Positions 7,592 through 46,764 of a stretch of 64,000 bases of DNA are shown in pieces. Where the stretch lies: contig NZ_CP109162.1 of the NCBI RefSeq assembly GCF_035920445.1, forward strand, positions 7,440,001 through 7,504,000, given 5' to 3'. Position numbers and translations under genes: made by a program. Within the stretch, counting starts at the first letter, position 1. Each line of letters opens with the position of its first letter. The notes beneath the pieces are model-generated. The model was not told the DNA's origin. It made no database searches and worked only from the letters and a program-made list of their open reading frames with translations. Source of the stretch: Nocardia sp. NBC_01730. GTDB taxonomy: Bacteria; Actinomycetota; Actinomycetes; Mycobacteriales; Mycobacteriaceae.

Positions 7592-7658
7592 GCATGCCTC
7601 CGGTGCGAAGATCGATCGGAGCGATCGGCACGTCGTTGCGCCGTGAGGAGCAGAAATA

Positions 7659-8720
7659 GTGAATGGCGAAGCAGGGCAGCGCAATTCGCTCACCGATGTC
7701 CCCGGGCTGCTGGTCGGCCACCACCACGTGCTCGACGCCGACGCCACGCTCGGAGCCGGGGCGGCGACCGGATGCACGGTCGTGCGCATACCGGGCGCCG
7801 CGGTGGCGGCGGTCGACGTGCGCGGCGGTGGACCCGGCACCCGGGAGACCGACCTGCTCGATCCGGTGAACACCGTCCGTCAGGTCGACGCGATCCTGCT
7901 GACCGGCGGCAGCGCCTACGGCCTGGCCGCGGCCGACGGCGTGATGCGCTGGTTGGAGGAGAACGGCGCAGGCATCGTGATGGATCCGGCCGACACGAGC
8001 CGGGTGGTGCCCATCGTCCCCGGCGCGGTGATCTTCGATCTCCCCGTCGGCGCGTGGGACATCCGGCCCACCGCCGAGTTCGGCTATCGGGCGGCGGAGG
8101 CGGCGGCGACCGAATTCGCGCGGGGCTCGGTCGGCGCGGGCGTCGGTGCACGAGCCGGATCCATCAAAGGCGGTGTCGGGACCGCGAGCATCGTGCTGAG
8201 CGAAGGCGCCGCGGCCGGGATCACCGTCGCCGCGCTGATCGTGGCCAATCCCGTTGGCTCGGTGTTCGATCCGCGCACCGGGCTGCCCTGGGGGTGCGGC
8301 ACCGACGGCCCCGACTACTTCGGACTGCGCCCGCCGACCACCGAGAAACTGGCGGTGGCCAACGCGCTTCCGGTAAAAGGCACGGTGCTCAACACCACCA
8401 TCGGCGTAGTCGCCACGGACGCCCCGCTCGATCCTGCGGGATGCCGACGGATGGCGACCACCGCGCACGACGGTCTGGCCAGGGCGATCCGCCCCGCGCA
8501 CTCTCCGCTCGATGGGGACACGCTTTTCGCGCTTGCCACGGGAACCGCCGATGCGGGCTCGGACATTCCGCTCCCACCCGCCTTCCCCGCGGACCTGCTG
8601 GTCCTCGACGAACTCTGCACAGCGGCCGCGGTCTGTGTCGAACGCGCCATCGTCGACGCGATTCGCTCGGCGCGCCCGGTCGCGGGCATCCCGGCCTACC
8701 ACGACCTGTTCTGTGTTTGA
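7659..8720 (+). CDS. P1 family peptidase (DmpA/Rv1333-like aminopeptidase)
   Basis: 353-residue member of the DmpA/BapA-type autoproteolytic N-terminal nucleophile hydrolases. Features seen: LTDVPGLLVGHHHV near the N-terminus, the ILLTGGSAYGLAAADGVMRW segment around residues 80-97, and the KGGVGTAS motif at about 170-177, where self-cleavage before the Thr/Ser nucleophile is expected to create the alpha and beta subunits. Start GTG 7659 follows GAGGAG. It is the Rv1333 homologue in the conserved block. The next conserved gene, mec, is pushed about 930 bp downstream by a repeat array. Confidence 0.9.
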   Translation: MNGEAGQRNSLTDVPGLLVGHHHVLDADATLGAGAATGCTVVRIPGAAVAAVDVRGGGPGTRETDLLDPVNTVRQVDAILLTGGSAYGLAAADGVMRWLEENGAGIVMDPADTSRVVPIVPGAVIFDLPVGAWDIRPTAEFGYRAAEAAATEFARGSVGAGVGARAGSIKGGVGTASIVLSEGAAAGITVAALIVANPVGSVFDPRTGLPWGCGTDGPDYFGLRPPTTEKLAVANALPVKGTVLNTTIGVVATDAPLDPAGCRRMATTAHDGLARAIRPAHSPLDGDTLFALATGTADAGSDIPLPPAFPADLLVLDELCTAAAVCVERAIVDAIRSARPVAGIPAYHDLFCV

Positions 8721-8845
8721 TTTGCCGCGCCTGCGGCGCGGCGTGTTCGCGGCCCCCTTATGGCTCGCGTCCGAGCGGCCGCCGCTGGCGACTTCGTCGC
8801 GGACGCGGCGGCCGCTCGGACGCGAGCCGGGCCGCGAACGGGCAA
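8716..8845 (+). repeat. Dispersed hairpin repeat, copy A
   Basis: Begins right at the P1 peptidase stop. Hairpin 1 is GCCGCGCC-TGC-GGCGCGGC at 8724-8742, a perfect 8-bp stem. Hairpin 2 has perfect 23-bp arms, 8762-8784 and 8806-8828, enclosing a small stem GCGAC-TTC-GTCGC at 8788-8800; outside it, gttcgcggcc near 8747 pairs with ggccgcgaac near 8830. Related copies lie at 12978, 13217-13262 (inverted) and 15508. It may act as a terminator for the peptidase gene, but the size and recurrence point to a mobile or structural repeat family. Confidence 0.85.
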
Positions 8846-9445
8846 TGCTCGGTCTCGCTTCGCTCGGAAATCGGGGGTTGGGCCGATGTGGTTTTGTCGG
8901 GAGGCGGACTGGATATCGACTGTCCGGTTTTTGTGTGGGTGTTGGTGGTCGGCTTGTGTCCGAGTGGTCGTCGGTGGTTGCTGGGTCGTGGACGTGTTGG
9001 TCGTTCGGGGTGGGTCGCGGAGGGGGAGTGCTCGGTCTCGCTTCGCTCGGAAAACGGGGGTTGGGCCGATGTGGTTTTGTCGGGAGGCGGACTGGATATC
9101 GACTGTCCGGTTTTTGTGTGGGTGTTGGTGGTCGGCTTGTGTCCGAGTGGTCGTCGGTGGTTGCTGGGTCGTGGACGTGTCGGTCGTTCGGGGTGGGTCG
9201 CGGAGGGGGAGTGCTCGGTCTCGCTTCGCTCGGAAAACGGGGGTTGGGCCGATGTGGTTTTGTCGGGAGGCGGACTGGATATCGACTGTCCGGTTTTTGT
9301 GTGGGTGTTGGTGGTCGGCTTGTGTCCGAGTGGTCGTCGGTGGTTGCTGGGTCGTGGACGTGTCGGTCGCTCGGGGCGGGGCCGCGGACGGGAATGCTTG
9401 GTCCCGGTTCTTCGCTCGGAAACGGGGTTCGGCCGATGTATTGCA
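8846..9445 (+). repeat. Three tandem 183-bp units plus a partial fourth
   Basis: Units start at 8846, 9029 and 9212, exactly 183 bp apart, each opening with TGCTCGGTCTCGCTTCGCTC. A diverged fourth opening begins at 9395 and fades near 9445. Units 1 and 2 differ at only two positions that I can see; the last 25 or so bases of unit 3 are diverged. The top strand is very rich in G and T, with runs such as GGGGTGGG and GGGGG. The first 50 bases of the unit match the tail of the dispersed repeat, so the array seems to be an expansion of an extended copy. As 183 is a multiple of three, several frames stay open on both strands, but none resembles a real protein. The stretch to 9655 holds no recognised gene. 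Confidence 0.93.
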
Positions 9446-9655
9446 TGGTGCGGGAACTGCGGGATCCGAATGTTCTCTGCAGACCTGTTCGACGTGGACT
9501 TGTTCGGGGTCGACCGTTCGACCCCCGACGACCTCGCCCGACGTGCCGCACCGAAGGTCGCAACGGGACCGGCCGACGGCGCCGGGGGAATAGCCGAATA
9601 TCCTGGCTCGTTGTCGACTGCGATGGGTCGGCGTGTGCGGAAGGGTGTTCGAGAA

Positions 9656-10093
9656 GTGCTGGTGATCAGGGCCGACCTCGTGGAGGCGATGGTGGCGCAC
9701 GCGCGTGCCGATCACCCCGACGAGGCCTGCGGCGTCATCGCGGGACCCGAGGGCTCGGATCGCCCGGAGCGCTTCATCGCCATGGTCAACGCCGAACGCT
9801 CGCCCACCTTCTACCGCTTCGACTCCGGCGAGCAGTTGAAGGTGTGGCGCGCGATGGACGACGCCGACGAGACGCCGGTGGTGATCTACCACTCGCACAC
9901 CGCCACCGAGGCTTACCCGAGCCGGACCGACGTGTCCTACGCGTCCGAGCCCTTCGCGCACTACGTGCTGATCTCCACCCGCGATCCCGAGCGGCACGAG
10001 CTGCGCAGCTACCGGATCGTCGACGGTGAGGTCACCGAGGAGCCGGTAAAAATCGTCGACTCGTACCAGAATCAGTCCGATGCCTGTTCGTGA
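9656..10093 (+). CDS. mec: JAMM metalloprotease Mec (CysO-cysteine peptidase)
   Basis: Zn-dependent JAB1/MPN-fold peptidase, homologous to Rv1334, which releases cysteine from the CysO-Cys adduct. The JAMM residues are complete: E23 in the EACG segment and H79, H81, S89 and D92 in YHSHTATEAYPSRTD. With the GTG at 9656 the protein is 145 residues, the family length, and GGAAGGG lies about 10 bases upstream; ATG 9623 is an alternative giving 11 more residues. It forms a compact operon with cysO and cysM (gaps of 15 and 8 bp), the sulfur-carrier route to cysteine. Confidence 0.93.
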   Translation: MLVIRADLVEAMVAHARADHPDEACGVIAGPEGSDRPERFIAMVNAERSPTFYRFDSGEQLKVWRAMDDADETPVVIYHSHTATEAYPSRTDVSYASEPFAHYVLISTRDPERHELRSYRIVDGEVTEEPVKIVDSYQNQSDACS

Positions 10094-12972: not shown

Positions 12973-12977
12973 TTGGC

Positions 12978-13262
12978 TGTGTTTGTTTTGCAGCGCCTGC
13001 GGCGCTGCGTGTTCGCGGCCCCTTTATGGCTCACGTCCGAGCGGCCGCCGCTGGCGACTTCGTCGCGGACGCGTCGACCGCTCGGACGCGAGCCGGGCCG
13101 CAAACGGGCGATGCTCGGTCTCGCTTCGCTCGGAAGCGGGAGTTGAGCCGATGTGGTTGCGGTGAGTGGTATCCGCGGTGCCGGGTGCCCTGCGGCTGCT
13201 CGGACGCGAGACACCAGGGGGCCGCGAACACGCCGCGCGCAGGCGCGGCAAATCCAACACAG
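12978..13262. repeat. Composite repeat with terminal inverted copies (MITE-like)
   Basis: A 285-bp intergenic segment bounded by inverted copies of the dispersed repeat head. The left arm holds hairpin GCAGCGCC-TGC-GGCGCTGC (12990-13008) followed by GTTCGCGGCCCC; the right arm is its inverse, with GCCGCGC and GCGCGGC at 13232-13249 and GGGGCCGCGAACACG just inside. The left part also carries the long second hairpin, with decayed arms, and the tail TCTCGCTTCGCTCGG. GGCTGTG occurs at both 12974 and 13265 and could be a target duplication, or chance. It separates the Rv1339 homologue from rph. Confidence 0.8.
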
Positions 13263-15507: not shown

Positions 15508-15590
15508 GTGTTGGTTTTGCCAGCGCCTGCGGCGTTGCCTGTCTCGCTGCGTTCGAAATCGGGAGTGGGGCCGATGTGGTTGCGCTGCGC
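15508..15590 (+). repeat. Dispersed hairpin repeat, short copy D
   Basis: Reads GTGTTGGTTTTGCCAGCGCC and keeps hairpin 1 as CAGCGCC-TGC-GGCGTTG (15521-15537, with one G-T pair). It then jumps directly to the tail (GTCTCGCTGCGTTCG and GGGGCCGATGTGGTTGCG). The long second hairpin of copies A and B is missing. It lies upstream of the Rv1343c-like gene and downstream of the SDR gene. Confidence 0.75.
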
Positions 15591-46523: not shown

Positions 46524-46560
46524 CACCCAAACCTCACTGCCGCCGTCCTGGCAGAATAGG

Positions 46561-46764
46561 CGGCTGCCTCGCATTCGCTCGGCCCGGCGCAGGGCTGTAG
46601 TCGGACTTCGTCCGGCTCTGCCTATCAGCGGCTGCCTCGCATTCGCTCGGCCCGGCGCAGGGCTGTAGTCGGACTTCGTCCGGCTCTGCCTATCAGCGGC
46701 TGCCTCGCCTTGGCTCGGCCCGGCGCAGGGTTGTGGTCGGACTTCGTCCGGCTGTGCCTGTCAG
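46561..46764. repeat. Three tandem 68-bp repeats
   Basis: Copies start at 46561, 46629 and 46697 with CGGCTGCCTCGC; the first two look identical and the third has several substitutions. Each unit contains GTCGGAC-TTC-GTCCGGC, a short hairpin. It fills the gap between the acyltransferase stop (46777) and the P450 start (46523), so it may act as a transcription attenuator or a spacer. Confidence 0.9.

Follow-up and report, generated by a model that had tools for sequence, protein, structure and literature searches.

A 183-bp tandem array upstream of mec in Nocardia as a probable by-product of a dispersed MITE-like palindromic element

MIRUs (MIRU-VNTR) are short dispersed intergenic repeats of actinobacteria that are apparently mobile and insert at gene borders, and they form tandem arrays. 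MITEs are defined as short, non-coding elements with inverted terminal repeats that are dispersed and nested. The palindromes of REP/BIME systems, with their RAYT (Y1) transposases, are extragenic, lie next to stop codons, and occur singly and in tandem. The Nocardia element described in this study resembles all three. It shares a short dispersed intergenic form, apparent mobility, insertion at gene borders, and tandem arrays with MIRUs; small size, no visible coding capacity, inverted terminal repeats in the fuller copies, dispersal, and nesting with MITEs; and extragenic palindromes beside stop codons, single and tandem, with REP/BIME. MIRUs are described as inserting at start codons, with an internal ORF coupled to the gene (PMC12548453). 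In contrast, many ends of the Nocardia element adjoin a stop codon or the upstream side of a -10-like box, in both orientations, and MIRU-type insertion at start codons was not encountered among them. The Nocardia unit, moreover, is 183 bp long and dominated by a large palindrome.

A 64,000-nt stretch of Nocardia sp. NBC_01730 DNA (the window) was analyzed, together with the rest of the genome and related genomes. The family is real; the array itself is ordinary, and its parent elements are natural experiments. With a probability of roughly 0.8, the array arose by nested MITE-like insertions, strand-biased decay, and recent local amplification, and has no function of its own. A non-autonomous palindromic element is dispersed in Nocardia genomes, and one copy overlaps the S58 peptidase stop codon. 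The sequence downstream would be the remnant of an older copy, its palindrome worn by C-to-T changes on the leading strand. The conserved tails would then have served for recombination or replication slippage, which produced "tail + spacer + worn palindrome" three times, as near-identical 183-bp units. The array would be a by-product, and mec is probably served by its own SigH-type promoter. The features of the locus are as follows; neighboring genes were called by Pfam, and the names mec, cysO, and cysM were given by homology.

7659..8720, + strand: peptidase S58 ("P1") gene (Pfam PF03576, E 7e-70)
8711..8756, + strand: 5' terminal repeat of the element, consisting of CTGTGTTTGATTTGCC, a short hairpin (GCCGCGCC/GGCGCGGC), and GTGTTCGCGGCCCC
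8743..8839, + strand: main palindrome of the intact copy, with 24-bp perfect arms at 8762-8785 and 8805-8828
8846..9028, + strand: array unit 1 (near-consensus tail, then spacer, then decayed palindrome)
9029..9211, + strand: array unit 2 (2 differences from unit 1)
9212..9394, + strand: array unit 3 (10 differences from unit 2; matched up to 9392 in the genome search)
9395..9439, + strand: degraded fourth tail/head (81% match to the unit head)
9587..9612, + strand: SigH-type promoter motif, GGAATA-N17-GTT, between the array and mec (putative function)
9656..10093, + strand: mec (Prok-JAB), followed by cysO (ThiS) and cysM (PALP)

Tandem Repeats Finder delimited the array at 8846-9439, with a period of 183, 3.2 copies, and 95% matches; this corresponds to three full units (8846-9394) and a degraded fourth head. 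Over the 183 positions, unit 2 differs from unit 1 at 2 and from unit 3 at 10, every one of the 10 within the last 25 bases; 12 differences separate unit 1 from unit 3. The 25-mer TGCTCGGTCTCGCTTCGCTCGGAAA matched four times in the window at up to three mismatches (three times in the array and once at 13112; expected 0.00). When the unit was compared with its own genome, 56 matches were obtained, with 40 of 83 candidate places scored; the array locus alone was matched at full length, and the remaining matches mostly covered no more than the first 24-98 bases of the unit, with one covering bases 101-163. A sequence-only reading had proposed three near-identical units between the peptidase gene and mec, a unit head matching the tail of a dispersed repeat, and descent of the array from that repeat family. 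The first was borne out by the repeat search and the unit comparison. The second held for about the first 48 bases, and the unit-head matches elsewhere in the genome support the third. Near-identity of the units also supports the recent local amplification or homogenization that it had put forward. It placed the array correctly, but the related sequence begins earlier than it had claimed, at 8711.

The array is the downstream part of the dispersed element, which begins at 8711 with CTGTGTTTGATTTGCC across the stop codon of the S58 peptidase gene. The TGA (8718-8720) forms element bases 8-10, and the peptidase ends in DLFCV* here and in, for example, DLFGV* or DLFGG* in relatives. Positions 8711-8756 matched a terminal-repeat query derived from the copies at 100% over 46 bases, and the hairpin appears in the fold. 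The RNA fold of the intact copy (8711-8893) has an energy of -126.1 kcal/mol and a z-score of -6.84. In intact copies, a strong, covarying palindrome is accompanied by a conserved tail; in a sub-family with a different tail (GCTCGTAAGACTCGC) the palindrome is the same. Of the 37 palindrome pairs compared in 45 intact copies, 10 were changed on both sides, compared with 2.3 in shuffles and 0-2 with slid partners. Further pair types numbered 15, not above shuffles (14.2), and one variable pair was unpaired in 9 of the 45 copies. We read the palindrome as probably maintained at the DNA level because two-sided cells (38) far outnumber one-sided ones (6); arm-to-arm correction without selection would produce an identical covariation picture.

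Two further copies lie in the window.

12977..13262, + strand: second, fuller element copy with inverted terminal repeats at both ends
15508..15587, + strand: degenerate element copy with terminal repeat and tail

The fuller copy sits between a metallo-beta-lactamase-fold gene and rph, both recognized by Pfam. Its right end adjoins TAGGCT, a -10-like box 6 nt before the likely GTG start of rph. In the rph spacers of four relatives (L109, L114, L116, and L120), the terminal repeat or a variant of it ends at the same place, as judged by eye.

Of 77 ends with a CTGTG-type terminus, 20 were assigned to the interior of another copy, using suffixes picked by eye, and 24 were unclassified. At least 17 of the 77 lie at the stop codon of a coding-like frame; among 7440 positions drawn at random from the fetched loci, coding sequence included, 88 did so (1.2%). 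Genes near copies were called with a home-made codon scorer. The end at 8711 is among the unclassified ones and overlaps the peptidase stop codon by annotation. Another 16 of the 77 lie 0-5 nt before TANNNT, followed after 4-8 nt by ATG or GTG, and 300 flank shuffles gave a mean of 0.65 and a maximum of 3 such placements. Copies ending at a -10-like box suggest that the promoter sequence upstream of the box can be replaced without loss. TA occurs 0-2 nt from 18 of 57 non-nested ends and is also raised at 3-5 nt; across ten 3-nt steps 8-37 nt away, the count was 0-6 (mean 2.1). Stop codons and -10 boxes are where TA would be expected to accumulate in GC-rich DNA, and a transposase that prefers TA would be guided to them; much the same placement would follow from purifying selection against insertion elsewhere.

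The position at the stop codon raises the reading that element and array act as a transcription barrier, in which the palindrome ends the peptidase transcripts and insulates the SigH-type promoter of mec. The palindrome starts just past the stop codon, folds strongly in the intact copy, and covaries, and the excess of element ends at stop codons over random positions points the same way. However, the sole terminator-like site in 8600-9800 (8870-8887) lies off the palindrome and within the shuffle expectation of 1.7, the preponderance of two-sided changes fits a DNA palindrome better than a G-U-tolerant RNA, element-like sequence was found in only 6 of 67 relatives' spacers, and the reading concerns the first copy rather than the array. 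We regard a barrier as rather unlikely.

The family is widespread in the genome (8.68 Mb, one contig). The tail pattern GGYCTCGCTKCGCTCGGAA matched at 77 places with up to two mismatches (49 exact and 21 with one mismatch, giving 70 at one mismatch or fewer), and the reversed control matched once. Tandem pairs or triplets, spaced 104-201 bp, make up 14 of 55 tail loci, and the other 41 are single. The 549-base whole-array query matched 30 of 148 genomes of the genus, its own included, with four candidate places scored per genome. No report of this family was recognized among the papers listed in searches of the open-licence PMC literature, as judged by title or the start of the abstract. Several loci bear near-identical arrays, which may be of use as typing markers. 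Longer tail arrays of up to six copies, spaced 121-138 bp, were seen in one relative (G053; C1:1711789-1712482, 1780700-1781207, and 7128541-7129043). Elsewhere in the genome of the window (L195:3487-3806, about 6666486-6666805), one end of a copy consists of 16 head-to-tail repeats of the element's terminal 20 bases (CTGTGTTTGATTGGCCGCGG).

The units differ from the intact copy of the same locus in a biased manner. Over 138 aligned bases, 14 C>T, 6 C>G, 3 A>G, 2 G>T, 1 T>G, and 1 T>A changes were counted, with no G>A or T>C. In the first copy of the locus, 7 of 181 scored positions are off consensus; in the next copy, 47 of 172 are. The same comparison was made at the 14 tandem loci of the genome. 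C>T exceeded G>A in the second copies of all eight loci on the leading strand, and G>A exceeded C>T in five of six on the lagging strand (Fisher p 0.003 versus leading). The exception, at 4635106, is poorly aligned, with 64 of 159 positions differing. A per-copy comparison of 72 copies (72 of the 77 tail matches at up to two mismatches, taken from stretches fetched for having matches) agreed, with a Mann-Whitney p of 6e-5, in which copies within one array are not independent. Because little-diverged copies show an excess of G>A over C>T on both strands (75:43 leading and 108:35 lagging), the consensus is an imperfect ancestor. The split was also made by flanking-gene direction; the biases of transcription and replication are disentangled only in part. 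On both replication arms, second copies preserve a record of strand-specific mutation. Element-specific or transcription-coupled C-to-T hypermutation was considered and dropped, as the bias flips with the replication strand across copies.

The sequence-only reading had described a G+T-rich top strand with quadruplex potential. The composition was confirmed (G 45.5%, T 28.8%), and we read it as probable mutational wear tied to the replication strand, since the bias of second copies tracks that strand. Quadruplex formation was rejected, with no G3+N1-7 motif on either strand of the array compared with an average of 2.7 in single-base shuffles. The wear has also abolished the fold, which falls from a z-score of -6.84 in the intact copy to +1.07 in the unit; 174 of 200 shuffles folded equally well, and the suggestion of a structured transcript was rejected. 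No Rfam family matched the window at gathering thresholds.

In units with a strongly decayed palindrome, the 48-bp tail has stayed near consensus, a contrast biased by the gathering of copies through tail matches. Gene conversion may have preserved the tail, and selection on it is possible. The latter is the basis of a further reading, an array for protein binding or homologous recombination kept by selection on the tail motif. Near-identical tails in all three units, and a tail pattern found at 70 to 77 places depending on the mismatches allowed with a single control match, are in its favor, but the 41 single tail loci and the absence of the array from every orthologous spacer measured make it very improbable. 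Under the preferred reading, that of decay followed by amplification, a worn unit would most simply have been multiplied by unequal exchange or slippage between the tails.

Among the 79 corresponding loci of relatives, the spacer between the S58 peptidase gene and mec could be measured in 67; the other 12 gave no mec match. None of the 67 spacers contains the 183-bp array, and six contain element-like sequence. The element is forward in N. sp. CY41, which has its own 122-bp duplication (x 2), N. beijingensis, and N. niwae; it is reversed in N. pneumoniae and in one of two N. amamiensis strains (BJ06-0157), and N. araoensis has a fragment. In the close relatives N. gamkensis, N. exalbida, and N. 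arthritidis, the 109-110 bp spacers gave no element match. By eye, short spacers of relatives open with bases resembling a piece of the tail, and they may be deletion remnants instead of virgin sites. The sequence-only reading had named in advance the findings that would point to a chance local duplication, and the outcome was mixed: related species are without the array and the unit is without a fold, but the unit head recurs at tens of other places.

The spacer is about 935 bp long in the window, 70-215 bp in 52 of 63 Nocardia, and 6-10 bp in three of six Mycobacterium loci, those in which mec was found. Its mec-proximal end is conserved. The motif GGRAYW-N15-21-SGTT is present in 52 of 68 stretches upstream of mec, the own one included, compared with 1.6% of single-base shuffles, the 68 stretches being interrelated. 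In M. tuberculosis, the SigH consensus is GGAAYR-N17-GTT, and Rv1334-Rv1336 (mec-cysO-cysM) is directly regulated by SigH (PMC4803200). Because the conserved motif at 9587-9612 coincides with SigH regulation of these genes in M. tuberculosis, mec probably has its own SigH-type stress promoter downstream of the array. The description of the array as lying inside a conserved operon was misleading, given the mostly long Nocardia spacers and this motif.

The same motif bears on translation of the array as an N-terminal repeat extension of Mec, at 61 codons per unit. An 816-aa frame from 7643 to 10093 is indeed open through the array into mec, but other frames on both strands are open too, as expected of GC-rich DNA. 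A SigH-type promoter motif between the array and mec argues against such an extension, as do the spacings of 104, 142, 164, 170, 194, and 199 at other tandem loci, which are not multiples of 3. This reading is barely credible.

The label MITE-like rests on terminal repeats, nesting, and variable presence, and transposition of the element is putative. Presence varies among relatives at the peptidase/mec spacer, in both orientations, and at the rph spacer, although deletion of copies would leave a similar pattern. Both ends bear clear inverted terminal repeats at 12977-13262 and several other loci. Unlike in MITEs, many copies, including that at 8711, show the 5' terminal repeat only, with no 3' repeat seen, no paired target-site duplication was demonstrated at the ends examined, and no autonomous partner was found in the one facing pair of ends examined. 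This pair lies 4.4 kb apart (5239010/5243376); among ORFs of at least 220 aa inspected by eye, it encloses an HtpX-like protease and another protein, and no transposase was recognized. The genome has three partial PF01797 (Y1-type transposase) matches, and unlike in REP/BIME-RAYT systems, the surroundings of the two examined (L228 and L229), to a distance of about 1.5 kb, contained no element terminal repeat. At orthologous sites (peptidase/mec spacers L118 and L167; rph spacer L109), the element interior has opposite orientations between species, as if inverted or replaced between the terminal repeats.

Element copies are clustered around the origin of replication. With dnaA at 5.983 Mb, all 70 tail matches with one mismatch or fewer fall in a zone from 3.53 to 8.37 Mb that covers 57% of the chromosome and extends no more than 2.46 Mb from dnaA; two of the seven two-mismatch matches fall outside it. 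Sampling of 18 stretches of 20 kb from 0.1 to 3.52 Mb gave no match in 17 and just a tail in the last; two samples taken within the zone were likewise without a match. For a different part of the element, there were 73 exact matches, 71 of them at 3.53-8.39 Mb. Of the other two, the one at 2.89 Mb is a genuine copy belonging to the second sub-family, and the other resembles a chance match, as do at least two of the 71. In a search of five relatives, the matches listed lie within about 2.7 Mb of dnaA in G053 and 2.9 Mb in G104, G023 and G111 had only 12 and 3 matches, and G062 was the fifth. Three species show copies clustered within 2.5-2.9 Mb of dnaA, with hardly any towards the terminus.

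This pattern raises the question of whether old intergenic repeats merely follow the conserved core or are kept out of the terminus. A plain account, old intergenic repeats lying between conserved genes that are concentrated near the origin, is possible. Alternatively, the parent elements would mark gene borders, their ends lying at stop codons or immediately ahead of the -10 boxes of leaderless genes, would be kept almost only on the origin side, and could be genome-wide boundary or chromosome-organizing palindromes, with arrays as over-grown, worn boundaries; we consider this decidedly unlikely. A family of 68-70 bp tandem repeats, with 12 loci among 23 matches and two outside the zone, is too small to serve as a control.

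That dispersed family is separate from the element and has the motif CTCGCATTCGCTCGG. In the window, it forms a tandem array of 68 bp x 3 at 46560-46764, and similar arrays of 69-70 bp were seen at 2.66, 4.03, 5.70, and 7.38 Mb of the same genome.
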